From: Gentiana macrophylla
Taxonomy: Eukaryota; Streptophyta; Magnoliopsida; Gentianales; Gentianaceae
NCBI GenBank assembly: GCA_026214975.1
Contig: JAOBSW010000822.1
Location: 1 to 64,000, forward strand
Reading direction: 5' to 3'
DNA length: 64,000 bases
Part shown: positions 1,824-20,436 of the stretch, one piece after another
Layout of the letters: each line of letters starts with the position of its first letter
Position numbering within the stretch: the first letter of the stretch is position 1
The notes under the pieces: model-generated
Seen by the model: the letters and a program-made list of their open reading frames with translations, nothing else
What the model was told of the DNA's origin: nothing
Database searches by the model: none
Translations under genes and position numbers: made by a program

Positions 1824-1855
1824 CGGTCGGCCGAGCCCGACTATTCGGTCGACCG
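1824..1855 (+). promoter_or_regulatory. Phased palindrome pair upstream of the LTR TATA box
   Basis: Two 10-bp dyads, CGGTCGGCCG (1824-1833) and CGGTCGACCG (1846-1855), are centred 22 bp apart. The same pair with the same spacing is in the right LTR at 8383-8414. The equivalent place in Gyp-B holds a CGGTAAACCG-type pair at 20088-20118. Binding by a protein is inferred, not shown. Confidence 0.6.
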
Positions 1856-1952
1856 AGTGGACTTAAAGCCCATGAGAGTCCGACATATTACTTAAGTCGG
1901 TTAGGGTTTGGGAATCCGATCCTTAGTCGGTTTCTAAGTCGGTTTTGAGCTC

Positions 1953-1960
1953 TATATAAA
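1953..1960 (+). promoter_or_regulatory. TATA box in Gyp-A left LTR
   Basis: TATATAAA in the context GAGCTCTATATAAACACATT, about 100 bp downstream of the first palindrome pair and conserved at 8513-8520 in the right LTR. The start of transcription is inferred to lie about 30 bp downstream. Confidence 0.65.
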
Positions 1961-2371
1961 CACATTGTCATTAGTATTATGTATTCATTCATACATTGAT
2001 TCAATCATTCATAAAAGAGCACAACAAATTGAGAGTTTTTTCGACCAAGTTAGATGCAACAATGTAAGCCCTTAATCTTCATGTTTTATTTTCAAGTAAT
2101 TAATTCTTCCAATTACGTTCTTATCGCTTGAATTAATTAAACATAGCTAGATGATGTGATTCTCGGCTATGGCGTTAGGTGGTGGTGACACCTTGTCAAT
2201 GAGGATCCCATGACCTACGTCATAATCTAGATTTATTCATGACTCTACTTGATTTAATTAATGTGTATCTATGATAGTTTATATAAGTGATGTATGAATT
2301 CTTTGTTTAAACTTACGTATAAGGAAACACCGAGAGGTTATTTCTAGGATGTAATTGGGGTTGAATTCGTC

Positions 2372-2425
2372 CGGGTGACCGAGCAAAGTCGTTCGATCGA
2401 CCGAGCCCCTTTACTCGGTCGACCG
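2372..2425 (+). promoter_or_regulatory. Phased palindrome triplet downstream of the LTR TATA box
   Basis: Three dyad cores, CGGGTGACCG (2372-2381), CGATCGACCG (2394-2403) and CGGTCGACCG (2416-2425), are each centred 22 bp from the next. In the right LTR the same triplet lies at 8935-8989 with spacings 22 and 23, one T being inserted. The Gyp-B counterpart is at 14692-14722. Confidence 0.6.
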
Positions 2426-3256
2426 AGCCCCTAATTTTGTCGATTAAGTCGCCACGTCTTTATGGTGGGTTTAACCTAGTTGAATTTACTTTCTTAGTAG
2501 GTATGGCTACGGCTACACTAACGTCGCTCGTCGATTTTTCATTAGCGTATTATTAGGAAATACCAATATAAGACGTCTAGTTCGGCTCATGAACGATCTT
2601 CGGGACTTTCGGCCAAGATCTAGATTAGTTTTGTATTAGGGAATTGTCGACACCTAGTCATCGTAAATCGTAGATTAACAAGAAACTAACCAAGTAATTG
2701 TTAATAGGGCGAGGGCTTGAGCGATCGTTTAGAAATACGCTAACCATAGGAATGTTGCCTAAGCGAGGTGTCACGGTTAATATCGGCATCCTTAGAGTAA
2801 TGGCGTGTGAGTTATATGAGATGGAAACCCAAAAGGTGAAGTCACGTAACAATACCACGGTGATCTAGTAATCTAACGGTGCTAAGTCAAGTTAAGGGAT
2901 GACTCCCGTAGCCAATTAAGTATGAATCTGACCAGATTAATGATTAATGAGTTAAGTTATTTTATATAAGTTGTCTTGGTCCGATCGATAACGTCGGTAA
3001 TTGGAAGGTTAATTACGTTTGTGTTTTTAAGTTTGAGTTTGTTTATCTTATTTTGTCTTTTATGTTGGTCTTAGATATTTGTCCAATAACGAATTAGGTG
3101 AGTTAATTATTTAAACCTAGGGTCCACATTTTGATTCCACGAGGGTCGACCTTGATTCACCATCGCTATGCTATGATGTACCTAGTGCTATTGCTAGTAT
3201 TTGGTGGTCAAGTAAAATAAATTTATAACTTTGATCGGACCGCAATCAAGTTTTTT

Positions 3257-3272
3257 TGGCGCCGTTGCGGGG
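3257..3272 (+). other. Primer-binding site of Gyp-A (tRNA-Asp type)
   Basis: TGGCGCCGTTGCGGGG, 8 bp after the LTR end, is complementary to the 3' end of plant tRNA-Asp except for one missing C. This primer choice is characteristic of Athila-like gypsy elements. It fixes the element on the plus strand and the LTR end at 3248. Confidence 0.85.
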
Positions 3273-3424
3273 AATCAATGGCCCAATGATTGTTTAAATA
3301 ATTATTTTTATCTACCCGTTCTTTCTTTATTGTTTTTAGTTGAATTATTTATTTTTCTTTGACGAATTATCTGTACTTGTATCTTTGTTAAAGGAGTAAA
3401 GCGAGGAATGGGAAGATATTCGTT

Positions 3425-3456
3425 CGGTCGATCGAACGTATTCACTCGGTCGACCG
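3425..3456 (+). promoter_or_regulatory. Phased palindrome pair after the primer site of Gyp-A
   Basis: CGGTCGATCG (3425-3434) and CGGTCGACCG (3447-3456) are centred 22 bp apart, about 165 bp past the primer site. Gyp-B has its own pair at the matching place (13852-13882), about 150 bp past its primer site. Confidence 0.6.
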
Positions 3457-3649
3457 AGCCTTTCGACTTTAATTTTATATACAGTGTCGTTTCCCCAGTG
3501 TTCTGTTTCCCCCTGTTTGTAGGTTGTAAGTTTGACAACAGTATGAGCAATCATACTGTTTGTCAATTTACTAATTGTTTATTTGTTTTTTCAAATATTG
3601 CAGATAATTCGACGTAAATCACTCACATAACCTGCTCAAGATCAGCAAA

Positions 3650-4745
3650 ATGTCATCAAATGATTTTATCAAAGGCCAAGAAGAAGTCAAGGTTTCTGAA
3701 CCAAAACTACACCAAAAATCCGTTAACACGAAGCTCATGGAAAGGATAGAAAAGATGAAAGCGAAAATCCGAGAGGCAAGGAAATCGAGGAGGCTAAAAA
3801 GCCTATTGGCAAAGAGGTATGTCTATTTGAATCCAGAGGAAATTTCTTGGATTCGATTCACTTTAGATTATGATGATTACATGTCGAGATAGAATCGAGT
3901 CGAGGGTAGCGTGACTAAGGAGAGCCCTATTGTCATCTGTTCTAGAGATGAAATATTGGTTAAAGACGAGTCTCGTCGATGCAAAAGTTAGCGAGACCGG
4001 AGCTTTTATGGTTGGAGTAACCCTAGAACAAACCCACTTAGGTTTAGCCTTGATTGATTCGATTCGAGCCTTAATATCTTTCCTAAAAGCCTTTGTGATA
4101 GGAATTCCATTTTAACACCCACTAACACCCCGCTCCAAGTTAGATTAGCGGATGGAACTAGGACAATCATGGTGGGAGACCGAACAACATGATTATTGGT
4201 GTGGGGCAATTACGGTTTAAGATAGACATAGTGGTAATGGAAATCGAGGAACATCTGAATGCCCAATCATTTTGGGTAGATCGTTTATCAACACCGCTAG
4301 AGCCTTCATACGGATGACCGGACATGAGATAGTATTGTTTGGCGCCAAGGGTTACGAGTGTTATGGGATAACAAATCCAATTTCCCTGTACCGGTAAGTG
4401 TGAATGTGTTAGAAGTAGTTGGTTCGGAGAAGCTTGATGCCACTCAAGGTCTAGGAAAGGATGTTGGTGATAATGTCGATGATAAAGATGAGAGGGAAGT
4501 CCTTACTATTCTAAGTCGGAATAGGTCGGTTCACTTTGCACCAAATACGACCAATATTGAAGGCTGTAGACCTACCTAAGGATAGGAGGACCAGAGCGAA
4601 GAAACGAACTAGGAGAGTTCATAACAAAAGCTCATCAAAATCAGAGATGAATCCAAAAGTAGGCGCTTATGCGGATGGTCAATTCGGCTGTCTTTTCATT
4701 GGACTAAAATCCAAAGGAAGGGCACTCGTAGAAAAGAGACGGTAA
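3650..4745 (+). pseudogene. Gyp-A gag-protease remnant
   Basis: A degenerate coding region with several frame changes. 3650-3892 is an open 80-residue lysine/arginine- and glutamate-rich segment beginning MSSNDFIKG that could be the gag end. Around 4047-4061 the codons give ALIDS, the start of a retropepsin D-S-G site, then the frame breaks. Shifted frames give LRLADGT-like and then PIILGRSFINTARAF near 4262-4310, the conserved C-terminal half of gypsy proteases. From 4358 to 4745 comes an acidic stretch, then a basic tail with RRTRAKKRTRR. Gyp-B has the same protease then basic-tail order at 12540-13640. No polymerase follows. The protease cannot be active as read. Confidence 0.6.
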
Positions 4746-5404
4746 AACTTTTTCGGTGAAAGTCGGCGGGTGAAAACCTGGCAAGTCAAAAGCGGTGTTT
4801 AGGAGTGATGGTTTTGGAAGTGAGATATAGACTCAAAATTTAGAATTATTTCGTTTCATTTATTTTATTTTATTTCATCTTTATTTTTAGTATGAATAAA
4901 AGTAACGTAGAATGGCGAGAGCCTTTTTTATTTTTGCCGTTTTCTAATGACCATTAGGTTACGTATGTGCAAAAAGTTTTTTTACTCGAATCATTTTAAC
5001 GTGAAGTAGAGTAGGAAGAGAAATCATTATAAAATGTATTGATGATGGGAATTTGGTGAAAAGATGCTTAGTTTCAAATTTGTATTATTTGGAAGAAGTG
5101 AAGATTTATATGTTAATGGATTGTGGTTGGATTATTCGATTTTTGAGGTGAGGATTTTTCAAATTGTGACATGATAATTTTGATAGACTTATGTGTACTA
5201 GCTTGAAAATTTCGTGTGTATCAAATTGAGGAGGTCAACTATCATTTATTTTTACACATCCCCATTTTTCATTTCCCAATCCACCTTTTCATTTCCCCCA
5301 TTAATTTATTCCTCCAACAAAACCATTCCACTCCTCAATCCTTACCTTCCTATCTCCACCAATCACCTTCCACCATTTCAATCCTTTCACTTTCCACATC
5401 TTTC

Positions 5405-5412
5405 TATTTAAA
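5405..5412 (+). promoter_or_regulatory. Candidate internal TATA box before the transposon-protein ORF
   Basis: TATTTAAA inside a pyrimidine-rich run, 359 bp upstream of the ATG at 5771. Support comes from the parallel arrangement in Gyp-B (TTTATATA at 11926-11933 on the plus strand, 355 bp from its ATG). No transcript evidence is available here. Confidence 0.4.
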
Positions 5413-5674
5413 CTCCTTTTCTCTTCATCATTTCCACACCACAAAATCTTCATCTTCTCCAAATCCCCAATTTTCTTCTTCTTCTTCTCTCCATTAATTC
5501 CCATTTCCAATCTTTCTCATAACTTCCATCCACCCAAGATTGGGGATAGTAATCTAAATGATCCTCCAATATCACAAGTTGTGACTGTTCATATCTACGA
5601 TCTCACGAAGGATTATCCGATCCAGTCATCACGAGGAAGACCTAAACCTCAAAGCAGCAGAGCTTCCATCGATT

Positions 5675-5737
5675 CGGTCGGCCGAACCTTTACGCTTTCG
5701 GTCAACCGAGGACCGAGGCCATTCTCTCGGTCGACCG
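5675..5737 (+). promoter_or_regulatory. Palindrome cluster just upstream of the last ORF of Gyp-A
   Basis: Three dyad cores: CGGTCGGCCG (5675-5684), CGGTCAACCG (5699-5708) and CGGTCGACCG (5728-5737), spaced 24 and 29 bp between centres. The last ends 34 bp before the ATG at 5771. The spacing is looser than in the LTR copies. Gyp-B has a pair at 11622-11652, 50-80 bp before its ATG. Confidence 0.55.
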
Positions 5738-5770
5738 AGAGCTTCATACCGCTGCATCTATCTGTCAGCG

Positions 5771-6394
5771 TTGCTCTGTTCCAGTTCTGCAATTATGCCA
5801 CCAAGACGACAATCCTCCGCACAGTTTGTAGCAATCAACGATGCCATACCCTTGATCAACGGGGTACCGCAATTCGCTACCCAAGAGGTATTTTCGTTTT
5901 ATCGGAATTTCTTCCACAATTCGCCGGTACACCGGGCTCGGGGATTAGATTTGACCAACTGGCGTCAAGAGCTGTTCGATCTAGTGGAGTATTATCAGTG
6001 GCAAGAGGTTGTTGCGCCACCTGGCCAAGTTAATGTCGACTGGGTAAGAGAGTTTTATTCTTATTTACACGTGCACCCACACACGAATTTAGTCCAGGTT
6101 CGTGGCAAATCCATTGTAATTACTCCGGGGACTCTTAATAATTATTATGGTCTCGATACCCCGGAGGAGGAGCCAGAGTACACAGTGACCTTTGATGAGT
6201 CTGATGCATGGTTGGAGGAGGTTGGTGCCCATCTCGGGATATCATGGACAATAGGGGAAGTTGCTCGCACTTTTGAGGAGCCATACTTTAGGCGGTGGGA
6301 AGATAAGTGCTTACATAGGCTTATCCGTTCTAACATTATTCCGGCCAAGCATGTGTCTACAGTTTATTATGCACATGCTACGCTGATGTATTAG
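5771..6394 (+). CDS. Putative plant transposon protein-family ORF of Gyp-A
   Basis: A 207-residue open frame starting MPPRRQSSAQFVAINDAIP. It has the hallmarks of the 'putative plant transposon protein' domain (Pfam PF20167, named from memory): an N-terminal basic tag, a WQEVVAPPG segment, VDWVREFYSYLHVHP around residues 94-108, a following VRGKSIVITPGTLNNYYGL stretch, and a C-terminal LIRSNIIPAKHVSTVYY around residues 184-200. The family normally continues past this point; here a stop at 6394 cuts the LLYAI-type end, and related codons continue in other frames to about 6720. Molecular function is unknown; such domains are usually found in Athila-like elements. Gyp-B carries a homologue at 10928-11571. 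Confidence 0.7.
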   Translation: MLCSSSAIMPPRRQSSAQFVAINDAIPLINGVPQFATQEVFSFYRNFFHNSPVHRARGLDLTNWRQELFDLVEYYQWQEVVAPPGQVNVDWVREFYSYLHVHPHTNLVQVRGKSIVITPGTLNNYYGLDTPEEEPEYTVTFDESDAWLEEVGAHLGISWTIGEVARTFEEPYFRRWEDKCLHRLIRSNIIPAKHVSTVYYAHATLMY

Positions 6395-6412
6395 TGAGCG
6401 AGAGGATGGCCT

Positions 6413-6712
6413 GTTAATATTGGGGCACCGATGCGTTACGAGATGATTTGCCGATACCGCAAGCCTAGACACATCTTTGCCTTATGGTTCGTTGATCACT
6501 TCATTATGTGAGGCGGTGAGTGCCCAGTGCTAGGAAGTGACTCTATGTTAGGCCCATGCCTATCCTATCTTTGGATTACGTTGCACCACCTCTTGTGCAA
6601 ACCGATGATCACGGTCAGTGATGACGATCGCGCAATTCAAGATTTTCCTGGCGAATCCCAATGTTCTTCCATTAGCTTTTCGTTGATCCGAGCGATATAC
6701 CTTCGGACTAAG
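6413..6712 (+). pseudogene. Frameshifted C-terminal continuation of the Gyp-A ORF
   Basis: After the stop, shifted frames still read as protein: GAPMRYEMICRYRKP then HIFALWFVDHFI from 6413, LSLDYVAPPLVQTDDHG near 6565, and a counterpart of the 51-152 tail to about 6712. This looks like the rest of the same protein broken by indels. Whether they are real or consensus errors cannot be told from this sequence. Confidence 0.45.
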
Positions 6713-7139
6713 CATCTATGTTAATCTATTAATCTTCTCTTTATCAATGTGTTTTTATTTTTGATTTGGTGTACCAATAAGTTAAGTCGTGTTGTATGGA
6801 GTTCGTTTTGAATTTCCTAATGAATAAAATTTGTCTTATTTAATGTGTTGGATATTTGTGCATTATTTTCACTATAATTATTAAGTATGGGCTTAAATAT
6901 GTTTAAGGCAATTATTATACCTTTTTACGATCCATTTGATATGATTATATTTTTTGGACTAACCACATGCTTGAGTTCCATGTTTTTGTTAAAGATGTAT
7001 GTTTGAGATGTTGCATTTTATTGCGGTTAGTAGCTGTATTTATCTGTTAAAATTCTCCGGAGTTCATCAAGACTTGTTCAACTCCCGCACTTATTCAGAG
7101 CTAAGTTCCTTGTTCTTATTTTTATACATTGAGGACAAT

Positions 7140-7158
7140 GCATAGTTTAAGTGGGGTA
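7140..7158 (+). other. Polypurine tract of Gyp-A
   Basis: GCATAGTTTAAGTGGGGTA directly before the LTR start TGAGTCAC at 7159. The twin at 583-601 reads AAGTGGGGGTA. It is the expected plus-strand primer of a gypsy element. Confidence 0.75.
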
Positions 7159-9809
7159 TGAGTCACTTAGCTCATTTAGCATACTTGAATAAGTTTGTAT
7201 ATCAAATAATGAGTAAATTTAAAACTTTTACACTTACAATCACACTTATCTTTTGTGAGTTCCCGAATTTTGTATTTAATAAGGTAGGATCCATATTTCG
7301 TTAGATGCGTGGTCATGATATACTCTTGCGATATAATTTGATAAGCTTAAAGATATTCATATTATAAGTTGCAAGTAGTTATTTATTATTCGATTACTCA
7401 AAATATGAATCAACGTTTACCACGCTTATCAAAAATGAAATATATGTGTACATTGCATAGATAATGGGTTGTGCCACTGGTAATCAATACTTATCGTCGA
7501 TGTATTCTTAATCTTCTAGCTACAAAAGCGGAATAATAAGCTTGAGATATATCATGTTTTACCAATGAGATAAACACTTTGGGCTTGTAGTCAATTACCA
7601 AAGTAGCCTTGCGCTTGTGGTAATATTCATTGCTATATTTGATCTAAGATAGGGGGATACATTAAAAAGTTTTCTTCCTTGAGATTTGTAGTATTTGAAA
7701 AATGTGAAGAATTGAAAAATTCAACTCTTAAGAGGCTTTGAGTAGTACTCGGTCTCCAAGTCCAAAAACCGTATAGATATATTCTTGCTTATTGTTCTAG
7801 TGCTTTACCCATTACGAGGCTTAAGCAGAGGAATGCTGATGATGGTGGGACTTGAGAATTCAAAGTTGGCATAACCATTAATCATGCCACATTTATAAAA
7901 CCAATGCATGTGCACACATCACTTCGATTCATACCGAGTAGTGAATAATGGATATCTTATTAGCATATATAGTATGAGTTGATTCGGGTTTCTTGTGTGA
8001 GTATGGTGTGACCCTTTGGAAAATGATCATATGGGGAATAACTTGTTAATACTTTGATCGGGATGATCAAAGGCTAAGTGGAGGGCAGTTGATGACGGTC
8101 GATTTGTACCCATTATTCTGCAATCTTTACCCTTGATTTTGATGTGAAATAACCTTAAGAGAGTGATAATAAGTCATTAAGTGCCTAATTTAGATATACC
8201 CCGTGTTACGATTTATTATTATGCATTTGGTAATTTATCAAGTATTTGGTATTACAAACTATGTTTTTGTATGATAAATACACAATGAGCATTATGGACG
8301 GACTACGGAGAAGGAATTAAAGATCCAGGACAATGTAGAGCCAGCAGAAGATAGAAGAGCGGAGCCCAGAGCGGTGAAGGCTCGGTCGACCGAGCCCGAC
8401 TATTCGGTCGACCGAGTGGACTTAAAGCCCGAGTGAGAGTCAGCATATTACTTAAGTCGGTTAGGGTTTGGGAATCCGTTCCTTAGTCGGTTTCTAAGTC
8501 GGTTTTGAGCTCTATATAAACACATTGTCGTTAGTATTATGTATTCATTCATACATTGATTCAATCATTCATAAAAGAGCACAACAAATTGAGAGTTTTT
8601 AAAGCAAGTTAGAATTTGCAACAATGTAAGCCCTTAATCTTCATGTTTTATTTTCAAGTAATTAATTCTTCCAATTACGTTCTTATCGTTTGAATTAATT
8701 AAACATAGCTAGATGATGTGATTCTCGGCTATGACGTTAGGTGGTGGTGACACCTTGTCAATGAGGATCCCATGACCTACGTCATAATCTAGATTTATTC
8801 ATGACTCTACTTGATTTAATTAATGTGTATCTATGATAGTTTATATAAGTGATGTATGAATTGCTGTTTAATCTGTTCTGTATAAGGAAACACTGAGAGG
8901 TTATTTCTAGGATGTAATTAGGGTTGAATTCGTCCGGGTGACCGAGCAAAGTCGTTCGATCGACCGAGCCCCTTTTACTCGGTCGACCGAGCCCTAATTT
9001 TGTCGATTAAGTGCGCCACGTCTTTATGGTGGGTTTAACCTAGTTGAATTTACTTTCTCATTAGGTATGGCTACACGGCTACGTCGCTCGTCGATTTTTC
9101 ATTAGCGTATTATTAGGAAATACCAATATAAGACGTCTAGTTCGGCTCATGAAGCGATCTTTCAGGACTTTCGGCCAAGATCTAGATTAGTTTTGTATTA
9201 GGAATTGTCGACACCTAGTCATACGTAAATCGTAGATTAACAAGAAACTAACCAAGTAATTGTTAATAGGGCGAGGGCTTGGCGATCGTTTAGGAAATAC
9301 GCCTAACCATAGGAATGTTGCTAAGCGAGGTGTCACGGTTAATATCGGCATCCTTAGAGTAATGGCGTGTGAGTTATATGAGATGGAAACCCAAAAGGTG
9401 AAGTCACGTAACAATACCACGGTGATCTAGTAATCTAACCGGTGCTAAGTCAAGTTAAGGGATGACTCCGTAGCCAATTAAGTATGAATACACCAGATTG
9501 ATGATTAATGAGTTAAGTTATTTTATATAAGTTGTCTTGGTCCGATCGATAACGTCGGTAATTGGAAGGTTAATTACGTTTGTGTTTTTAAGTTTGAGTT
9601 TGTTTATCTTATTTTGTCTTTTATGTTGGTCTTAGATCGTTGTCCAATAACGAATTAGGTGAGTTAATTATTTAAACCTAGGGCCCATATTTTGATTCCC
9701 TGAGGGATCGACCTTGATTCACCATTGCTATGCTATGATGTACCTAGTGCTATTGCTAGTATTTGGTGGTCAAGTAAAATAAATTTATAACCTGATCAGA
9801 CCGCAATCA
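7159..9809 (+). repeat. Gyp-A right LTR (2651 bp)
   Basis: Same ends as 602-3248 (TGAGTCAC ... CCGCAATCA). TATA box at 8513-8520; palindrome pair at 8383-8414 and triplet at 8935-8989. Differences from the left LTR are small patches of mixed indels and substitutions rather than evenly spread transitions. Sequence after 9809 is unrelated to Gyp-A. Confidence 0.88.
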
Positions 9810-10823
9810 GAGGATTAATCCATATGTAATGATTATATCAATGGACGCTTATTATAATTCTCGTGAGGAGATAAATATAATCTCATAATCAGAGGAGTGC
9901 AGTCACGGGATTATGGTGGCATATTCCTGTGATTGGTTTATCGAATATAATTATTTTGTTCGTAAGATAATTATTTATTTGATTTATCGGAGCCGCTGAT
10001 TATTAGTCCATGGTCCCGACGTGCCTCCAATATAGCATAGCTATTCTCGGACGTCGAATCCTAATAATATTAATTTAATTCTTATTAGAATTTAATTAAA
10101 TGATATGTGAATTAATTATTTAGTGAACTATTAAATTAGTTGGGCTAAATAATTAAATATGTGAAAAAGACATTTTTCATAATCTTGGCAAAATTAGTGT
10201 TGTGGCCGAAATTAATATTGACTAGGTCAATAATGATAATTTCGGCCAAGGCATGTTTTTAGGAAACAAGAAATTGGTTTTCTTGTGAATTAATAAGACA
10301 TGTGCACAAAATATTTATTGGATAAATATTTATGGTAAGAAATAAAGATAAATATTATTCTAGATTTGTTCTAGAATATTATGGGATTATCTTTTATTTA
10401 TTGGATTTATTTATTTGCAAAATAAAATCCTTGGAGGACAAGGATTACTCTCCTATATAAAGAGAGTTCTCCCAAGCCTTAACAACACATAAAATTCGAC
10501 TATCATCTCTTAGAGAGAGGATACATAATTTCGGCAAAGGGGAGAGAAAGGGAAAATCTTGGAGGTTTTTCCGGGTAGCATATCGGGAGGATTCGAGCCG
10601 AGGATTTCCTTCCACCGGGAGTTGCTCGGATCACACGTACGGAAGATCGTGGTGCTCTTCACACAATCTTTTATTCTTTCTATTATGGTTCTTCTACTTG
10701 GATTTTGAGATCCAAGAGGTATGTACTACAACCCCCTTGTAGAGTAGATCTAGTTATTTTATTACGTGTAATTTATAGATCTAGATCCTTAAATCGCTTC
10801 CGTTGCGAATGGAATTACTAACA
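9810..10823 (+). repeat. 3' part of a Cop-8-type copia LTR
   Basis: Starts GAGGATTAATCC and follows the Cop-8 LTR (from about 51180 and 58503) through the CCTATATAAAGAGAG promoter block (10452) and the CTACAACCCCCTTGTAG motif (10725), ending GGAATTACTAACA. The first 770 bp of the LTR are missing because Gyp-A adjoins. The missing half may lie left of the window if Gyp-A inserted here. It is diverged from the Cop-8 LTRs, so it is a related, older family member. Confidence 0.7.
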
Positions 10824-10927
10824 TATACTTTATAAGCACATAGCAAATAATAAGATGAATAATAAAATCTATCATTTTTAAATCAAAAATAATTACATAA
10901 ATTGTCTTTCGGGCACTACATCTAACA
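10824..10927 (-). repeat. Inverted 5' end of a Cop-8-type LTR
   Basis: Read on the minus strand this begins TGTTAGATGTAGTGCCCGAA and continues AAGACAATTTATGTAATT, matching the first bases of the Cop-8 LTRs (50410, 57722). It is fused tail to tail with the forward LTR end at 10823 and abuts Gyp-B coding sequence at 10928. Confidence 0.65.
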
Positions 10928-11571
10928 GACTGGAGATCCCTGCTTCAGATAGAACATCAACTCCGCCCTCTTCGGTGTAACAGACACCGTATCCTTGGTC
11001 GGCAGAAGACGGGCACACACAAATATTTTGACCACCTTCCTATCCCAAGATAATTCATTCTCCAGGAAGGTGGTGGGGGCTCCATAGGGTTGCGCTGCCA
11101 TTACACCCCGAAGTAATCAGCAATCATCTGCATCCTCTCTAAATCTTAAATATTGGTAGAGCATGTGTACTCATCTATGCCCACTGGTGGATTGTGAACC
11201 CCGTCATACTCGTTGATCCGCTCAATCGTAAAATCAACTTTGACTCCCTGGATCATAGCAAATACATCTCCCGGGTTATGCGCCAGATAAGCATAAAATT
11301 CTCTCACCACCGTACCATTGAACCTTGTCGGTGCCTCAGCCATATCCAGAATATCTTGCACCTTCAGGGCTCTTGGCAAGATCGTACCGCAATCGTCCAA
11401 CTCTATGCCTCGTTCTCAGGCAACCGGTCTTCCGTTCTAATGCCCTCGGAACGATTCATAGATCTCTAAAAAATGAAATTGCTCAACCCCGTCTATCAAG
11501 AGGTTAGAATCTCCGTATACATACTGATGACCACTTGGACGATGGGCGGTTCTGCTATGCTTGGGACCCAT
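10928..11571 (-). pseudogene. Putative plant transposon protein-family ORF of Gyp-B (truncated, frameshifted)
   Basis: Minus-strand frames from the ATG at 11571 (MGPKHSRTAHRPSGHQYVYG) to 10928. Parts align in order with the Gyp-A ORF: LLIDGVEQF with LINGVPQF, VVREFYAYLAHNPG with WVREFYSYLHVHP, and a VDFTIERINEYDGV segment with VITPGTLNNYYGL. A shifted frame then reads ARLLPTKDTVSVTPKRAELM, the C-terminal block the Gyp-A copy has only in part. At least two frame changes and stops lie between 11400 and 11470 and near 11150. The end is lost to the LTR fragment at 10927. Function unknown. Confidence 0.65.
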
Positions 11572-11621
11572 CCTGATGATAATAGGCACAGAAGATGATT
11601 CTGAATCTGAAAAAGTACCCT

Positions 11622-11652
11622 CGGTAAACCGGCAGGTGCTTTCGATTTACCT
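11622..11652 (-). promoter_or_regulatory. Phased palindrome pair before the Gyp-B ORF
   Basis: CGGTAAACCG (11622-11631) and CGATTTACCT (11643-11652) are centred 21 bp apart, 50-80 bp upstream of the ATG on the minus strand, matching the location of the Gyp-A cluster at 5675-5737. Confidence 0.55.
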
Positions 11653-11659
11653 CAGTAGA

Positions 11660-12180
11660 TTTTTCCCGGTTTCTTCTCAGACTCTGCTTCTAAAAATGGA
11701 AAACGATGAACTGCAGTAGCAACATGTTACAGCAGCACTGATCAGCAAAGGATAATGGAAAGAATGGTATTTGGGTGTTTATATGGAGGAAAAATGGTTG
11801 ATTTTGGTGGAGGTAATAGTGTTGATGGTGGCCGAAATTTTGAAAAGGAAGAAGAAATGGTGAAATGTTGGTGATTAAGAAGAAGATAATTGTTGAGCAT
11901 GATGAATGATAGTGGTGGAAGGGTGTTTATATAGGAGAAATCGGTAGAAGATGGAAGGATTTGGTGGGATAGTGGGTAGAGGAGTAATTAGGGTGAGGGA
12001 TTTGAGGGGATTGATTGATGGGATTGAGGTTGAGTTATGGTGGAGTGTGGGAAAGGATGAAATGATAGAAAAGTGGGAAAATGGGGTGCTTTTGCTGACT
12101 GGTGGGTTCCTGGTGCGACGTGTGTCCATCACGTGTCACCGAAAATTCTGCTTTTTAACATGACACTCAGAAACTGTAAA
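11660..12180 (-). promoter_or_regulatory. Gyp-B spacer with TATA-like boxes and CT-rich leader
   Basis: On the minus strand CTATATAAACACCCTT (box 11933-11926) is followed by a CT-rich leader with many CTTCTTC runs. A second copy, CCATATAAACACCC, is at 11784-11778, so a module of about 150 bp looks duplicated. The ATG of the last ORF is 355 and 207 bp downstream. By analogy with Gyp-A this is read as a separate promoter; that is inference. Confidence 0.45.
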
Positions 12181-12189
12181 AACCTAGCT

Positions 12190-12220
12190 CGGTAACCCGG
12201 AGGTAACTCCCAGTTTACCG
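12190..12220 (-). promoter_or_regulatory. Phased palindrome pair in the Gyp-B spacer
   Basis: CGGTAACCCG (12190-12199) and CAGTTTACCG (12211-12220), centres 21 bp apart. It lies about 260 bp upstream of the spacer TATA box, much as the LTR pair lies upstream of its own TATA box. I found no obvious Gyp-A equivalent at this spot. Confidence 0.5.
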
Positions 12221-12539
12221 GGGCTTATTTTCCCAAGATTTTTCTGCCCTTCTACTCTAAACACTTTACTTTAGCTCACTGATCAATCCTGACCTCAAAA
12301 ATCACTAGTTTCTTACTCCTTTTGTTGCTCTTTCCGACTCAATCCTAAACTACTTCACTAGAATACATAACGAGTAAAAAAAACCTAAGGGTGTGGTAGG
12401 ATGAAAAAAATATCATCATTACTCCGGCAACTTTTATTCACTCCTATCATATCAAAGGGTTCAAGAGAATAGTTCTGAGTTTAAATTCGTCAGCTCGAGT
12501 TACCTTTGGATCTTCACTCAGTCCAAAGTTGGGGCCTTA

Positions 12540-13640
12540 ACTCACCAAACTTTCATCTTCGAGGTTTCAACCGTCATGCACTTCCCTTCTCGTCGGTCAT
12601 TATCTTTTAAGAGTGCCTTTTCCCGGATTTTCATAGAAACTTTCTGAGCTCTCTTCCTAGTACGTCTCGCTCTCTTTGCTCGTGTGCTAGGTCGTCCCCT
12701 GCTTTGAGATTTAATCTTTATGCCCTAGGATTCCACATTTTCCACTGTAAGCTCCAATCTTTCACTGCGCAATACGGAAGGACTAGACTTCGTGAGCGTC
12801 TTGTTGTGGTCCTTCACTTCGTGTTCTCTAAGCATTAATCACATGAATTCTTGCTCACAAGTTTCCACTAGAACCTCTTGTTGCCTATGCCTTTCCTTCT
12901 CTATCTCCATTATTTCCACTTCCCCGAATCATAAGTCATCTTGCAACATTCCAGACTATTATCTAGGGGCTGTAGGAATTTTATAGATACGGCATCATTG
13001 TTCAGCCTTAATGTGATTTCCCCATTATCAAAGTCCATGATTGCTCTGCTGGTCACTAAGAATGGTCTACCAAATAGAACTGGGGCACTCAGATTCTCAG
13101 GTACATCTAAAACCATGAAATTTATCGGGAATGAGAATCCTCCTGCCTTAATCGTACAATCCTTTAACAGGCCGGTAGGCATATCTCTGGTTCGATCGAC
13201 AAAGGTCATGGACCGGGTTTGATCCATGACAACCGGAATCTTAATCTTCTAGTAGAAGGATAGAGGAAAATGTAACAACTTGAACCTGAATCACAAAGGC
13301 CTAAACCTACAGATATACCAATGATAGAGATCGGAGTCTAAAGCGCCCAGGGTCTCTTAACTTTTCATGTGACGAGTGCGGGTAATCCTCAGACTCTGAG
13401 AACATAGTGTCCGGATCCTCCTCCGGATCATCGGAGTCGTAGTTGGACGATATATCAATTAGCTCGATAGGAAACGTACCTGGTCGATAAGTCTCGTACT
13501 CTTTCAGGTTTTCCTCGGCTTCCTGCTTAAGAGTTTCAGTCTCCTCCTCCACACGCTTCTTGTCCCCTTCATATTTCTCTCTAGATTTTGATCCAGGATA
13601 CATAGAGATTGGCTTGATGTTCAACACGGTACGAAGAATT
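12540..13640 (-). pseudogene. Gyp-B gag-protease remnant
   Basis: Minus-strand order: an acidic, glutamate-rich segment (13627-13307), then LCDSGSSC with the retropepsin D-S-G codons at 13292-13284, then after a one-base frame change MDQTRSMTFVDRTRDM and FMVLDVPENLSAPVLFGRPF (13227-12910), the conserved second half of gypsy proteases. After a stop, other frames give a basic tail with RAKRARRTRKRAQ near 12680-12640, comparable to the Gyp-A tail. The active-site triad is present but not in one frame with the rest. No polymerase domain follows. Confidence 0.65.
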
Positions 13641-13851
13641 GCGTTTGACTCGTATAGCCTTTATCACTATTGCTTGACTGAATTTCCGAAGTGTCCTGAT
13701 ACTCCTTCAAAAGAGACAAAATAAACAAAGAAAAGGTTAGCAATTCCCGCTTCAGTTGGGGATGAACCCAACTGTTGTGGACCTACTAACTAAAATCAAC
13801 TCGGATAGACATAGAATAACAAGGACTGTCAGAATTTGAATTTCTGGACCT

Positions 13852-13882
13852 CGGTAAATTGGGGGTAAGCCACGGTAAACCG
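13852..13882 (-). promoter_or_regulatory. Phased palindrome pair after the Gyp-B primer site
   Basis: CGGTAAATTG (13852-13861) and CGGTAAACCG (13873-13882), centres 21 bp apart, about 150 bp downstream of the primer site on the minus strand. It corresponds in place to 3425-3456 of Gyp-A. Confidence 0.55.
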
Positions 13883-14020
13883 GGCATAGAATTTCTTATT
13901 TTGGCAATTTAGACAGTGCGGGTTTTAATCTAGGATGACTCAAGACTCAAAATGAAAATAAATTTAAAAAAACGACTTCTTAATTAGACTTAAAACGTTT
14001 ATTCTTGAAATTGGCCATTG

Positions 14021-14038
14021 TCCCCGGAAACAGCACCA
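14021..14038 (-). other. Primer-binding site of Gyp-B (degenerate tRNA-Asp type)
   Basis: The minus strand reads TTGGTGCTGTTTCCGGGG, matching the tRNA-Asp complement used by Gyp-A at most positions, with C-to-T changes and one other difference. The LTR end (GCGATCA on the minus strand) lies 8 bp away at 14046, exactly as in Gyp-A. Confidence 0.7.
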
Positions 14039-14045
14039 AAAATCT

Positions 14046-14998
14046 TGATCGCGTGTAAGTCACTAACGTCGATATTACTAGCAAGAATACTTGGTCCATC
14101 GTAGTATAGTAAGGACGAATCAAGGTCGATCCCACAGAGACAATGCAACTCAAGCATAAACGTTTCTAAACTAACTAAGAAGATACATATATGGTCTTTG
14201 ACCAACTATAGACATGAAAGAAACATGGTGTTCCTCCCCCTCTTCCTACCGATCTGCTAACTTGAATTAGTTAATCCTTATATTTACTTCCTCACATAAT
14301 TTCCTTAAATTAATGGAACGAGCTTTTAATTCAGTTTTAAGCTACGGGTGCAACTCCTAACCCTATCTCCTCCGACCATGGTAGTAGATAATCTATACGC
14401 CAACTACCCTCCTTAATTGGTCCGTAATAGCCATTACGTATAAATAACTAGAATTGCCGGTATTGAGCGCTAACTCATACCGCTAACCCGCCTAGGCAGC
14501 TATCGACACTGATTAGCACGTTCCTAGGGTCCATCAAGACTATGTCCTAACTAACACTTCACTATCAGTACTTCATGTTAATTTATGAATTACGAATACT
14601 AGATTTTCCAGACCTATTACTCGTTTTAATTATTTCTATCGATCAACGTAGCTGACGTGAATCACAGATTTAGGTTTTCTAAATTGTGCCTCGGTAAACC
14701 GGTATAGACCGCCGGTTTACCTAGGGCGGCTTTTCCTATTTTTGGATCTACATTGCTCAATGTTGATTAATCTATGTAAATTATAGGGTCGTTCAACAAG
14801 CACATTAACTAAAACACGTAATACAAACAGATCTACCATATTAAAGACATAAAGGAACGTTCAAAGCTTCATACCTTCAACAATGGAGATCTAGCTTTTA
14901 CCACTCAAGCTAGAGATGGTAGGGAAGGGAAGGAAACCAGAAAATAAACTTCAAGGACTTGGAAGGAACTTTATTTCATCAAATTGTATAATGTATAT
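14046..14998 (-). repeat. Gyp-B LTR, inner part
   Basis: Starts TGATCGCGTGTAAG next to the primer site and runs to the Cop-1 insertion. Contains the palindrome pair at 14692-14722. It continues at 19947. No second copy of this LTR is in the window because the other end of Gyp-B is lost. Confidence 0.6.
14692..14722 (-). promoter_or_regulatory. Phased palindrome pair in the Gyp-B LTR, downstream of TATA
   Basis: CGGTAAACCG (14692-14701) and CGGTTTACCT (14713-14722), centres 21 bp apart. Joined across Cop-1 it lies about 330 bp downstream of the LTR TATA box, like the Gyp-A triplet at 2372-2425. Confidence 0.55.
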
Positions 14999-15313
14999 TG
15001 AAGAGAGTTTGAGAAAGTAAATAATACTTGAGTAAACTTCAACTTAGTTTATTCATCAAATGGAAGAAGTATAAATAGTTACAATTGAGGTGAGATACTA
15101 GCTAGCTTGGGCGGCCACTAGCTATGGGCGGCAAGCATGCTTGTAAAAGTAAAAGTTATGTCTATGACATAAAGTAAACTAGACTAGAGTTTGACATATT
15201 AATTGTTTATATGTACCACAATTAATATGTCCTTTTACAAATAAAGTGTACAAATAATGTATACACGGAAATAAATAAATATTACATAATATTTGATATG
15301 TAATATTTCCACA
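14999..15313 (-). repeat. Cop-1 3' LTR
   Basis: On the plus strand runs TGAAGAGAGTTTGAG to ATATTTCCACA. The element-strand start is TGTGGAAATATTACATATC. The purine tract (element strand TTGAGGGGGGTG) lies directly to its right at 15314-15327. Confidence 0.92.
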
Positions 15314-15321
15314 CACCCCCC

Positions 15322-16765
15322 TCAAACTGGGTTGTATATGTTTATACAGCCAAGTTTACTACTCAGTCTGCTGAACATAAGTGGTGGAATGGCCTTGGTG
15401 AGAATATCAGCATTCTGGTCTGCTGAGGGAACATACTGGAGTTGAATAATCTTGGAATCAATCTTCTCCTTCAGGAAGTGTCTGTCAATGTCCACATGTT
15501 TGGTTTTATCATGATGGAGTGGATCTTCTGCCATGCATAAGGCTGAATTTTGTCACAGCAGAGTGTGATAGGGTGCTGAAAAGGCTGCTGAAGTTCTGTC
15601 AGGACCCTTTTTACCCATAGAGCTTCACAAATACCCAAAACTAGTGCCCTGAGTTCAGCTTCAGCACTGCTTCTAGAGACAGTAGGTTGTTTCTTGCTCC
15701 TCCAGGTGACAAGATTGCCCCATACATAAAACGATGCTTTGTAGTAGACCTTCTGTCTATGTGAATGACCCGGCCAATCAAACATCGGTGTAAACCTTGA
15801 TAGATCTCTCGGCACAGACTTGGTGAAGTGCAAGCCTTGGCCAGGAGTGGATTTCAAGTACCTCAAGATATCTGTTCACAACATCCCAATGATGCTCGGT
15901 GAGGGCAATGCATGAGCGGCTCACTGATCGACTCCATATGCAATATCAGGTCTTGTATGGGACATATAAATAAGTTTCCTACAAGTCTCGATATTAATCC
16001 TTCCCGACAAACAATGTCACCATGCGTGAGAGGTATTACTGGGGTCTCTGGGGATACAACGAGTTTGCATCCCAAAGATACCGGTTTCCTTCAAGAGTCC
16101 GGCACATATTTCCTTTGAGAGATAGAGATACCTGGTTATTTCTTGCAATTTCCATACCAAGGAAGTATTTAAGATAGCCCAAATCCTTGACTTGAAAAAC
16201 CTTTGCCAGTAGAGTCTTCAAATTCTGGATCTCAGTAGAGTCATCACCAGTGAGGATGATATCATCCACATACACAATAAGGATAGATCTTTTCTGGCTA
16301 GTGGTCTTGATAAACATGGTGTGGTCTGAGTTGCATTGATGATATCCAGCAGCTTTAAACTCTGAGAGTGAGTTTCCCAAACCAGGCTCTTGGGGATTGC
16401 TTTAGGCCATATAGAGATTTCCTTAATTTGCAAACCTTTCCTTGAGTGTTAGGATTGGTAAAACCAGGAGGTACATTCATGTAAACTTCCTCAGTAAGGT
16501 CACCATTGAGGAAGGCATTTTTGATATCCAATTGGTGAAGAGGCCAGTCAAGTTGGATAGCAAGAGATATCAGTATTCTGACAGTGTTCAATTTTGCCAC
16601 TGGTGCAAAAGTTTCTTTGTAGTCAATGCCATAAGTTTGAGTGAAACCCCTTGCAACTAGTCGGCCTTATACTTGTCAATTGTACCATCAAGCATTGTAT
16701 TTGATGGTAAATAACCACTTGCGACTAATTGTCTTCTTGCCTTTGGGGGAGAGCTGTTAGATCCC
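15322..16765 (-). pseudogene. Cop-1 reverse transcriptase-RNase H
   Basis: Minus-strand frames: QLDWPLHQLDIKNAFLNG and [10 protein letters not shown] (16600-16355), LIVYVDDIILTGDD (catalytic YVDD, near 16270), then RNase H with WRSKKQPTVSRSSAEAELRA and a C-terminal HVDIDRHFLKEKIDSK segment ending CINIYNPV at 15322. Frame changes at about 16370, 16040, 15865 and 15500 break it. The RT start upstream of 16600 is also degraded. Motifs are otherwise well kept. Confidence 0.85.
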
Positions 16766-16773
16766 ATGTATGA

Positions 16774-18640
16774 TTATCCGAGGGAGGCGATCATTTTGGT
16801 CTTGACAATTTGCCTTCCACTTATCATGTTGTAGAGCTTCTGTATATTCTTAGGAATAGAGTGAGAATCCAAGTCCTGTGTAAACATGGCAAAAGCAGGT
16901 GATAACTGATCATAAGATAGATAATTATGAATAGAATGATTAGTAGTGCAAGATCTCTTTCCCTTCCTGATAGCAATAGGCCTATCATCAATGTCGCAGT
17001 CTTTGAGAGTGCAGAGTTCTTTGAGTGTCGATGAGGCTCGGGTCGTGCAGGCTCTGGGTCGATGAGACTCGGTTCGAGGAGGTTCTTTGAGGATCGTGAG
17101 GGAGAGCCGAGAGTCGATAAGTCTTTGAGGTTCGATCTCTTTGAGAATCGATGAGGTTCTTTGAGGGTTAAGAGTTTCTTTGAGGATAGGATTTAGGTCA
17201 ATTTCAATCAGGTTTCCATCAGTGACTTCCTCAGTGGACTTGATGTAGTAGGGAGTCCTTTCAAAAAAATTTACATCCATAGAATTGTAAAATCTCTTTT
17301 CAGAAGGAGAGTAACACTTGTAACATTTCCTGTCCTTTGCATATCCTAGGAAAATGCACTTGTGAGCTTTGGGATCAAGTTTGCTTCTGTGTTGGGCATG
17401 GATATAAACAAACACAGTACAACCAAAGATTTTTGGAGGTAATTGGGAAATAAGATGAGGGCATGAGTGTGTGGTCAGAAGGGTTTGGATAGGAGTTTTG
17501 AAGCCTAACACTCTACTGGGAAGTCTGTTGATTAAGTATGTGGCAGTTAATATAGCTTCACCCCACATACACTTTGGAACATGTGTGGTGAACATGATTG
17601 ATCTAGCCATCTCTAGTAGGTGCCTGTTCTTTCTCTTAGCAACCCCATTTTGTTGAGGTGTTTCCACACAACTACTGATATGGACAATCCCCTTATCCAT
17701 CAAGAAATTACTGAGGTTAGACTCATAGTATTCAAGTGCATTATCAGTCTTTAAGATCTTGATCTTAGTGTCAAATTGAGTAGAGATCATGTTGTAAAAT
17801 TCTTGAAAAACTGTTCCAACTTCAGATTTATCCTTCATTAAAAACAGCCATGTGTTTCTGGTATGATCATCAATGAAAGTGACAAACCACCTTTTCCTGT
17901 TATACTTTTTACCCTTGAAGGTCCCCATACATCACTATGAATTAAAGTGAAAGGTGTAGAAGGCAAATGAGGTAGTTTGGTATACATGATTTGGTAAGTT
18001 TGGCAAATTGACAAATATCACATTGAAGATCATTGACATTACATCCTTTAAATAATTCAGAATTACTGGACTTTAAATAACCAAAACTTGGATGTCCTAG
18101 TCTATAATGCCATAACATGATATTGTCTAAGGTTTGAGTGCAGTGTCTGAGGCAGATTCGAGTCTTGATCTTATGTCTTGGCGAGGTTGACCACATACAA
18201 TCTGAAGCAGGGTTTAGCCCTCCCAATCACTTCTGTGAAGAAGGGTCTGGAAAGTACACTCGATTCTTATTAAACACAATGATCCACTTCAAATCTTTTG
18301 CAAGTTTCTTGTGAGATATGAGATTGCAGTCTAATTTTGGAACAAATAGGACATCCTTTAGGCATATCTTATTAGTGAGTATAACATTTCCAAAACCTTC
18401 GCATGAGAGATAGATCCATCGCCAGATCTTAATTTTATGAATTTGATGACATGGCATAAGGTGAGTTATGAGGTTTTTATTGCCAGTCATATGAGAGGAG
18501 GCCCCAGAATCAACAATCCATGTTTCATTACTAATAGAAGAGTAGAATTTACCTGCACTAGCCTGAGTAGCCGTGTCAGTAGAGGGACTACCTTCTTTTT
18601 GTTGAGTGAGGAAAGCTTTGAATGCAAACAAACCGAGCAT
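16774..18640 (-). pseudogene. Cop-1 protease-integrase
   Basis: Protease: TWIVDSGASSHMTG (D-S-G active site) in 18640-18227. GAG-pre-integrase: LWHYRLGHPSFGYL with CDICQFAKLT (HHCC zinc finger) in 18226-17942. Integrase core: KRWFVTFIDDHTRNTW, then KTDNALEYYE and QQNGVAKRKNRHLLE, in the open frame 17928-16774 (384 residues). The first catalytic Asp (IHSDVWG) falls at the frame change near 17930. The linker with repeated SSTLKEL-like stretches is serine/arginine rich and shows local sequence disturbance at 17030-17170. Confidence 0.87.
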
Positions 18641-19627
18641 TCAACTTGTTATCATTCTCTCTTCATTGACATGCACGCTTACGACTTTCCTGGTAGGCTT
18701 TGAGGATTTAGGCATGCCATGTAGCTTCCAGCAGGTGTCCTTGGTGTGATTTGTGCGTTTGCAGTGCTCACAGAACAACTTTCCAGTTCGATCAGTAGGC
18801 TTCCTGACAGTCTCAGTAACCTCAGCAGGCTTCCTGACAGTCAGCAGGGTAGCACTTTCAGCAGGGTTGTCAGCAGGGGAGTTCAGCAGCATCACTTTTC
18901 TCCTGCTTTCCTCATGTTTGACTTCAGCAAACATGGATTTGAGATTGGGGAGAGGTTTTGTGGCAAGGATTCTTCCCCTAACATCATCAAGAGTAGGATT
19001 CAGTCCAGTAAGAAACTTGAATACTCTCTTTTTCTCAATAATGTCCTTATAAAGGGCAGCATCCTTGACATCATTCCAGGGGTGAGTTTCCAACATATCT
19101 AGGTGTTGCCATGCCCTAGACAGTTGGTTGAAGTATTGAGTTACAGACATATCTCCTTGTCTGCAATTTTGAATCTGAGCTTCAAGTTCATACACTTCTG
19201 ATGTATTGTCTTTCTTGGAGTAAAGATCCTGGCATTATCCTGAGATCTCGCTGCATTATCATACATCATAAAGTTCTCACTAATCTCTTTTGTCATTGAT
19301 CTTGTGAGAATGGTCATGACTTGATTATTAGTAGTATCCCATGCTTCAAATCTCGGGTCATTTTCAAGCAGGGGCGGAGTTTAGAGTCGACGGGTATCCC
19401 ATCTTACCTTGTCCAGAGATGTACATTTTCATAGACCTTGACCACAGCAAGTAGTTGTTGCCATCAAGTCTATGATTTGTGTAAGATGAAGAAGTCGGTG
19501 ACCCCGATCTGTGAGGCGGTTGGGACTCAATCGAGGGTGAGGAAGCTTCAGATAATGAAGACATTCTTGATTCAAAGAGGCATCGAGAATTTGCAATGGA
19601 TTCGTGGAGTTTAAGTCTCGATACCAT
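18641..19627 (-). pseudogene. Cop-1 gag
   Basis: N-terminal part 19627-19364 starts ATGGTATCGAG, where the ATG is formed by the last LTR base plus the primer site; it contains HRLDGNNYLLWSRSMKMYIS. After a break at 19360-19200 the frame 19195-18641 gives a UBN2-type gag (YELEAQIQNCRQGDM, LTGLNPTLDDVRGR) and a CCHC zinc knuckle CEHCKRTNHTKDTC. Structural protein of the virus-like particle. Confidence 0.82.
19615..19626 (-). other. Cop-1 primer-binding site
   Basis: The minus strand reads TGGTATCGAGAC directly after the LTR end; plant copia elements use the initiator tRNA-Met complement TGGTATCAGAGC. Confidence 0.75.
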
Positions 19628-19941
19628 GAAGAGAGTTTGAGAAAGTAAATAATACTTGAGTAAACTTCAACTTAGTTTATTCATTAAATGGAAGAAGTAT
19701 AAATAGTTACAATTGAGGTGAGATACTAGCTAGCTTGGGCGGCCACTAGCTATGGGCGGCAAGCATGCTTGTAAAAGTAAAAGTTATGTCTATGACATAA
19801 AGTAAACTAGACTAGAGTTTGACACATTATTTGTTTATATGTACCACAATTAATATGTCATTTTACAAATAAAGTGTACAAATAATGTATACACGGAAAT
19901 AAATAAATATTACATAATATTTGATATGTAATATTTCCACA
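19627..19941 (-). repeat. Cop-1 5' LTR
   Basis: 315 bp, same length as 14999-15313, with differences near 19685, 19826, 19834 and 19860. Followed by the target duplication TATAT at 19942-19946. Confidence 0.92.
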
Positions 19942-19946
19942 TATAT

Positions 19947-20436
19947 AATTAAAGATTGAATATAATTGAGTACTTATGAATTATTTTATGCGGCTTTATA
20001 TAGATACAATAGCCGACTTATGACTCTCAGAAGCCCTAACCGACCTAGTAAACGCGGCAGAATCGATTTCTTGTTCCTCAAGACCCTCGGTTTATCGAGC
20101 CTAGACCACGGTAAACCGAGCCTTCAATTCTTCTTTTTCTCTGGTAGATCTCTTCTTGGACTTCATTTACTTGGCCCAACACGCTTTCCTCTGGTCCAGC
20201 TTAGTCCATAAATGCTCCGGACTTGATACATCCTGGAAAATACAAAAAACACAACAAAACAGTACCAAACCTTCGGGAAAATAACACAGATGCAGCATTA
20301 CGAAACTAGGAACATACACAAAGCATTTAACACATATTCCATACAATAACGAGCCTATATATCCTATCTTTGAGCATATTTTTGGTTAATAAAGGTATAA
20401 TTATTGGTACTAGTTAGGGTGTTATTAGTCCCTCAC
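19947..20436 (-). repeat. Gyp-B LTR, outer part with TATA box
   Basis: Continues the LTR of 14046-14998 across Cop-1. The minus-strand TATATAAA is at 20002-19995, with the palindrome pair at 20088-20118 about 90-115 bp upstream of it. Total LTR would be about 1.44 kb. The outer end (minus strand TGAGGGACTAAT) is inferred from the switch to gag coding. Confidence 0.5.
20088..20118 (-). promoter_or_regulatory. Phased palindrome pair upstream of the Gyp-B LTR TATA box
   Basis: CGGTTTATCG (20088-20097) and CGGTAAACCG (20109-20118), centres 21 bp apart. Same location relative to TATA as 1824-1855 in Gyp-A. Confidence 0.55.

Follow-up and report, generated by a model that had tools for sequence, protein, structure and literature searches.

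Methylation silences the retrotransposons of plants, but in some of their long terminal repeats (LTRs) it is locally low for reasons that are not known. The question is raised here by a stretch of Gentiana macrophylla DNA (contig JAOBSW010000822.1, positions 1 to 64,000, assembly GCA_026214975.1; hereafter the window), in which two Athila-like elements, Gyp-A and Gyp-B, carry short palindromes (dyads) at regular steps: what are these sites for? In both elements the dyads consist of inverted CGGT/ACCG half-sites repeated mostly every 21–22 bp; they lie ahead of the LTR TATA box, in the leader and before the last open reading frame (ORF). Across the genome the step of 22 bp recurs in further copies of the Gyp-A type, and the CpGs inside their cores have largely escaped the decay seen at CpGs around them. 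Judged from the sequence evidence, it is probable that the phased dyads are bound by a host factor and remain unmethylated.

Gyp-A is an Athila-type element whose dyads have the core CGGTCGACCG. All 25 dyads described in a first-pass annotation of this DNA were found in place, with the centre spacings it gave. However, its six Gyp-A locations reduce to four independent ones, since self-BLAST revealed a long direct repeat (95.5% identity) that makes the dyads at 8383/8405 and 8935/8957/8980 copies of those at 1824/1846 and 2372/2394/2416. The features of Gyp-A are as follows.

72..3248, plus strand: direct repeat, first copy, comprising the LTR and the stretch upstream of it, with only an approximate LTR start (self-BLAST)
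1824..1855, plus strand: dyad pair A, upstream of the TATA box, step 22 bp
1895..1944, plus strand: three AGTCGGTT repeats (1895, 1925 and 1937), between pair A and the TATA box
1953..1960, plus strand: TATATAAA, probable LTR TATA box
2372..2425, plus strand: dyad triplet B, downstream of the TATA box, steps 22 and 22
3257: primer-binding-site-like TGGCGCCGTT, before pair C
3425..3456, plus strand: dyad pair C, after the primer-binding site, step 22
5675..5737, plus strand: dyad triplet D, before the last ORF, steps 24 and 29
5795..6394, plus strand: last ORF, PF20167 Transposase_32-like, 199 amino acids (Pfam)
6632..9809, plus strand: direct repeat, second copy (self-BLAST)
8383..8414, plus strand: second-LTR copy of pair A, step 22
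8935..8989, plus strand: second-LTR copy of triplet B, steps 22 and 23

The odd steps of Gyp-A (23, 24 and 29) look like local indels, because triplet D has steps of 22 and 22 in the close relative L039 and the 23-bp step at 8957/8980 is 22 in the first LTR copy. The interior of Gyp-A has no ORF of 150 amino acids except two overlapping frames at the last ORF, and a Pfam scan of its relative L009 found, of gag-pol, only a sub-threshold protease match; for these reasons both elements look non-autonomous. The direct repeat begins far upstream of the LTR promoter region (window 1–600), where the arrangement suggests that the 3′ part of another element adjoins Gyp-A in tandem.

Gyp-B lies on the minus strand and is split by a copia-like element (window 14999–19941, within the Gyp-B LTR) with an ORF containing an integrase core and an SH3-like domain; self-BLAST places the repeats at 14999–15313 and 19627–19941. 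Its features are as follows.

20088..20118, minus strand: dyad pair upstream of the probable TATA box, step 21
19995: probable TATA box, TTTATATA
14692..14722, minus strand: dyad pair downstream of the TATA box, step 21
14029, minus strand: primer-binding-site-like match
13852..13882, minus strand: dyad pair after the primer-binding site, step 21
12190..12220, minus strand: dyad pair about 620 bp before the last ORF, step 21
11622..11652, minus strand: dyad pair about 50 bp before the last ORF, step 21
11146..11571, minus strand: last ORF, in two open pieces (11437–11571 and 11146–11415), homologous to the Gyp-A ORF

Six of the ten Gyp-B sites are 1–2 mismatches from CGGTWWACCG, and the dyad centres have opposite orientation in four of the five pairs. 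The two families were said to share layout and phasing while differing in motif. The layout and phasing are indeed common to both, but the difference in motif was overstated: the half-sites CGGT/ACCG are identical, and the difference lies only in the two middle bases (CG or AA/TT) and in 1 bp of spacing.

Chance is excluded for both dyad sets. Pairs of similar palindromic 10-mers numbered 28 in the window against a mean of 4.05 in Markov runs (maximum 6 in 20 runs), those at 21–22 bp numbered 4 against a mean of 0.2, and CGGTWWACCG-like pairs at 21 bp, the Gyp-B type, numbered 5 against 0.017 expected (60 runs). The assembly from which the window comes (1.79 Gb in 1264 contigs) was searched for perfect CGGTCGACCG pairs with gaps of 10–14 bp allowed, which gave 10,932 pairs genome-wide and none for the reversed core; among the 50 pair places listed, the gap was 12 in 48, 13 in one and 14 in one. 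Twenty 10-kb stretches around perfect pairs (L005–L024) were analysed, and because these had been chosen by their dyads, loci reached through a PF20167 match to the ORF (L026–L065) were added. Adjacent cores up to 60 bp apart were separated by exactly 22 bp in 83 of 101 cases in the former and in 52 of 59 in the latter, where the other distances were 21 and 23 (twice each) and 41, 43 and 45 (once each); spacing in other copies is thus far from random, in keeping with the first-pass annotation. The reversed core gave no pair in either group of loci. In an unsupervised histogram of palindromes the signal was noisy, with bumps at 22 and 44, when no CpG filter was applied, and with the filter it peaked at 22 (16 non-redundant pairs; 7 at 21 and 9 at 23) and 44 (12).

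Such regularity could be inherited rather than selected, a 22-bp unit having been duplicated in tandem and spread by recombination between elements. Arrays in L005–L024 mostly hold 2 to 4 sites, and that at L007:2430–2505 is made of tandem 22-bp units with identical spacers, which shows how arrays can grow; one spacer sequence of L010 occurs at two places of the element, and a 41-bp module has apparently moved between lineages (see below). Against this neutral account, spacer sequences vary widely among arrays and are mostly unlike one another despite the constancy of cores and spacing, the 21-bp step of Gyp-B is maintained at five places that differ in their flanks, and the CpG-specific preservation described next is left unexplained, so that we hold it to be highly improbable. 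Flank symmetry within the dyads is at chance level beyond position 1.

The LTRs of one element are identical at insertion, and differences between them arise later, in mostly dead copies. CpG decay was therefore compared between LTR mates; the result covers the CGGTCGACCG type in one genome, with copy rows that are partly related, and CpGs gapped in either LTR copy were dropped. Fourteen elements were reached through the ORF (eight known clade-I elements, plus two and then four taken from the PF20167 list by match length, likely clade I), and 13 were alignable, element L048/L049 being dropped because its LTRs did not align. With the AGTCGGTT repeats set apart, 5/160 CpGs were lost by transition in cores versus 62/391 elsewhere (Fisher 1.0 × 10−5; within-element permutation 1.5 × 10−5). 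The first batch (9 alignable of 10) had lost 3/104 core CpGs versus 44/283 others (p = 3.4 × 10−4), and the four elements fetched later as a check had lost 2/56 versus 19/125 (p = 0.024). Non-CpG positions in the same 13 pairs were not protected (9/250 in cores versus 320/11159 elsewhere).

The first set of 13 LTR pairs had been selected for perfect pairs, a choice biased towards intact cores; there, 3/162 core CpGs were lost by transition in one LTR, and loss amounted to 5/18 at 1–6 bp from the core, 6/35 at 7–20 bp and 11/92 at 21–50 bp. Cores that did not drive the choice (in the pattern-chosen set and the window) had lost 1/61 CpGs versus 105/757 (p = 0.0026), and the window alone 0/14 versus 18/107. 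In the first ORF-reached batch, loss was 2/7 at 1–10 bp from the core and 4/33 at 11–30 bp. Preservation is confined to the core, with loss back at background within 1–10 bp, as read from historical decay and small counts. Sequence context does not explain it, because CCGA and TCGA decay outside cores (18/114 and 12/66 lost) as opposed to inside them (2/103 and 1/48).

Copies of one site were also collected genome-wide through an anchor that left the core free, their rows and those of the controls being counted by hand. Across all 65 rows, 2/195 core CpGs were lost by transition; 52 cores were perfect, while 7 copies had A7>G and 3 had C8>T. Two CpGs taken as controls from the same LTR family were lost in 13/100 and 12/100 (25/200) among 100 listed of 282 copies (Fisher 3 × 10−6 versus the cores). 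A spacer CpG within the anchor (CA in 57 of 65 rows, CG in 6 and TG in 2) was rejected as a control, its ancestral state not being known.

A CpG-specific, base-sharp preservation is the expected trace of occupied, unmethylated sites, and it is on this ground that we favour them. Selection on dead copies, gene conversion and palindrome repair are disfavoured because each would be expected to shield non-CpG positions too. The dyads would be double-stranded DNA sites at which a sequence-specific protein binds the inverted half-sites as a dimer. Neighbouring dimers would lie on one face of the helix, since the sites recur every 21–22 bp, about two turns, and the sites may serve as promoter elements, given that they precede the LTR TATA box, recur within the transcribed leader and stand shortly before the last ORF. 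Occupancy would leave the core CpGs unmethylated, so that they would not decay like neighbouring CpGs even in dead copies, and the elements would use the putative host factor to remain transcribable. Genome sequence alone thus yields a footprint, the CpGs kept inside phased dyads, that would mark the exact sites a factor may occupy; the LTR-pair decay test is applicable to any genome with many LTR pairs.

Two further explanations place the function elsewhere. In maize Sireviruses, palindromes have reportedly been proposed as targets of host small RNAs, and LTR palindromes are plausible hairpin sources; but if the dyads were targeted for methylation their CpGs should decay more, contrary to what was observed, which makes this the least probable of the explanations considered. 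Alternatively, adjacent palindromes could form a transcript hairpin acting in packaging, in dimerisation or as a Dicer substrate. Neighbouring dyads are able to pair as a stem, and the opposite orientation of centres in four of five Gyp-B pairs fits such pairing. However, the spacer ends beside the stem are anti-complementary, position 2 pairing in 6 of 36 non-redundant pairs (shuffle mean 17.8; 0/2000 below 6), a test that gives support rather than proof, as the 36 pairs left from 88 after duplicates were dropped are not independent families. Arrays of three or four constantly spaced sites also fit hairpins poorly, and a CpG-specific difference in decay is a signal of DNA methylation. An RNA function is in our estimate very unlikely.

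Several points weigh against binding by a host factor or narrow the case for it. The anchored, control and AGTCGGTT rows include LTR mates of one element; when losses shared by neighbouring LTR mates (places within 25 kb, collapsed by hand) are counted once, the controls shrink to 17/200 (p = 5.6 × 10−4 versus 2/195), and three more core CpGs were lost by transversion, giving 5/195 in all (p = 0.014 versus 17/200). Dyads before the ORF had already been noted in eight of the 14 ORF-reached elements, although their LTR sites had not yet been seen. Isolated TCGGT outside dyads was lost in 6/51 cases, so the half-site alone is not enough for shielding. Should methylated CpGs have been miscalled in the assembly, part of the apparent loss would reflect methylation today instead of mutation; the methylation inference would then stand and the time scale would fail. 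The shielding itself is deduced from sequence. Finally, the AGTCGGTT pair at 1925/1937, meant as a control, had lost 0/200 CpGs (100 listed of 323 copies): the dyads are not the sole protected CpGs.

The AGTCGGTT repeats stand between pair A and the TATA box (window 1895, 1925 and 1937; second LTR 8455, 8485 and 8497), and in the LTR pairs 1/23 of their CpGs was lost. This is not a regional effect, because over the two 100-bp bins that precede the TATA box other CpGs decay (8/39 and 6/22 lost). AGTCGGTT contains the TCGGT half-site, as the dyads do, and holds ACCGAC, a core recognised by DREB-type factors. It may be a further shielded promoter element with this half-site.

Which protein, then, would read the dyads? 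The first-pass annotation pointed to an ORF carried by both elements, with motif and reader co-diverging. Such an ORF is present: the last ORF of Gyp-A matches PF20167 (Pfam, E = 2.5 × 10−16, residues 67–199), covering profile positions 3–130 of 177 and thus ending early, and the two open pieces of Gyp-B are 28 and 39% identical to it. A genome search for PF20167 gave 17,504 first-look candidates, of which 150 were scored, all above the cut-off, and 20 stretches of about 1.35 kb, each with the domain and 800 bp upstream, were taken (8 clade-I and 12 other-clade copies). Dyads precede the ORF in all eight clade-I copies (three Gyp-A-like and five L009-like), with 22-bp steps in six of them; in L030 and L037 they are 41 and 45 bp apart, the middle site not being recognised. 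None of the 12 other-clade ORFs had a detectable dyad pair in the 800 bp upstream, under limited criteria and with the start codon of some maybe near or beyond the stretch edge. The two Gyp-A-like ORF subclades are 64–78% identical to each other and use the same dyad core.

Dyads also occur outside Athila. L006 carries RNase H (RT RNase H) and integrase zinc-binding domains and a chromodomain match (PF00385; E = 4.3 × 10−5, 23.8 bits, just below the 25.1 cut-off), and by its domains is a gypsy element of another kind, probably chromodomain-type; L005 and L022 are related to it, as LTR alignment shows. These elements have the same core and spacing, with no tblastn match to the Gyp-A ORF within 10 kb, and the ORF was matched in only 4 of the 20 dyad-chosen loci. 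A 41-bp module covering the dyad pair is 97.6% identical between L005 and the Athila element L009, while within 300 bp on either side, the internal repeat of the module set aside, the next match measures 12 bp (E = 0.038). From this identity amid otherwise unrelated flanks, modules seem to move between lineages.

The comparison to be made is with the VANC proteins of Arabidopsis VANDAL transposons, element-encoded anti-silencing readers with DUF1985/DUF287 domains whose methylation loss spreads (accessible parts of PMC5735166 and PMC10398659). Here too, short family-typical motifs are dispersed in non-coding element DNA, and undermethylation is likewise suggested, by CpG decay in our case. Unlike VANC, the L009 ORF has PF20167 only, without DUF1985/DUF287 in a Pfam scan, and preservation is confined to the core, in contrast to the spreading described in the available text on VANC. 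The L009 ORF had no relative by sequence in PDB at E up to 1 and none among viral contigs, and an AlphaFold model of the ORF from three window rows was discarded (mean pLDDT 36.6).

A PF20167 protein could nevertheless read the dyads of its own family in a VANC-like manner and prevent silencing, with other elements hijacking the sites. Several points favour this: the dyads stand before the clade-I ORFs, L009 has two long forward frames, one of them the PF20167 ORF, a stop lies inside 9 of the best 150 scored matches (a list that favours intact copies), a sunflower Athila ORF with this domain has a predicted nuclear localisation signal (accessible text of PMC11728184), and VANC6 motifs occur in an unrelated element too (accessible text of PMC5735166). 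Nonetheless, the core does not appear to track ORF divergence in the copies sampled, other-clade ORFs were without detectable dyads, most dyad-chosen loci gave no ORF match, the VANC domains are absent from the L009 ORF, preservation does not spread, and Sireviruses of other plants have the same half-sites (as far as PMC2829016 was accessible). We regard an element-encoded reader as unlikely. As to the first-pass annotation, its view of a site read by a protein agrees with the phased layout kept in other copies and with CpG shielding as at bound, unmethylated DNA. Its co-diverging reader finds no support, given one core for two ORF subclades, the identical half-sites of Gyp-A and Gyp-B, the 12 other-clade ORFs, and the core, spacing and 41-bp module shared with chromodomain-type elements.

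Returning to a host factor, a transcription factor of the plant is the most likely reader, because Athila elements, chromodomain-type gypsy elements and the Sireviruses of other plants use CGGT...ACCG palindromes at like places. In the accessible text of Bousios et al. (2010; PMC2829016), the repeated-motif (RM) boxes of Sireviruses, which are Ty1/copia elements, are palindromes, almost all built around CGG-CCG; they form clusters that precede the LTR TATA box and the env-like gene, and are also described as bounding CpG islands. In Vitis the box is CGGTCGACCG, the very core of Gyp-A, and several others are of the form CGGT...ACCG. The placement is similar in our elements, where pair A (1824/1846) lies upstream of TATATAAA at 1953 and dyads precede the 3′ extra gene in the clade-I copies. 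Unlike the RM boxes described there, however, the dyads belong to Athila (Gyp-A with PF20167) and chromodomain-type gypsy (L006) elements and stand also in the leader after the primer site, and neither a spacing rule nor a CpG-decay analysis appears in that text. The motif was termed Sirevirus-specific there, and a common binding factor could not be named. Our results extend these boxes to gypsy lineages and supply a strict rule for the spacing, and the reader could be sought directly by pull-down.

In sunflower, one phylogenetic clade of Athila shows reduced LTR methylation in every context (PMC12844716), and a sunflower Athila element has an ORF with PF20167 (PMC11728184), like the 3′ extra ORF of Gyp-A and L009 and the Gyp-B pieces. 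This low methylation may be linked to dyads of the kind described here; no motif is named in the accessible part of PMC12844716. Phased dyads in Athila or a CpG-decay footprint were not seen in the available parts of the Sirevirus, VANC and sunflower papers cited. A text search for the core strings returned no retrotransposon paper by title among those listed, and no title or abstract start reported such arrays in Athila (subscription papers being mostly outside the search).

A wider proposal can be put forward, though it is doubtful. Phased CGGT/ACCG arrays might be a general device of plant retrotransposons (copia Sireviruses, Athila and chromodomain gypsy), occupied in the germline by a dedicated reader, possibly the Athila PF20167 protein in trans, that would block methylation at base resolution and leave a permanent CpG footprint in dead copies, with unrelated elements stealing the 41-bp module for protection.

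Other palindromes were noticed along the way. Upstream of the first ATG and just before the PF20167 ORF, the other-clade copies L036 and L041 have in common the inverted repeat CCCGTTT-N7-AAACGGG. At L005:983–1100, at L006:736–860 and in L022, a CGGTCGACCG pair has a TCCGTACGGA-type dyad, either intact or altered, 22 bp further on, and the LTR arrays of these elements hold further TCCGnnCGGA dyads, so that two dyad types stand in one phased array. Dyads of the form AACGnnCGTT, some at 21–22-bp steps, occur at L012:375–670, L013:2942–3164 and L006:9749–9990, those of L012 standing upstream of a TATA-like sequence.

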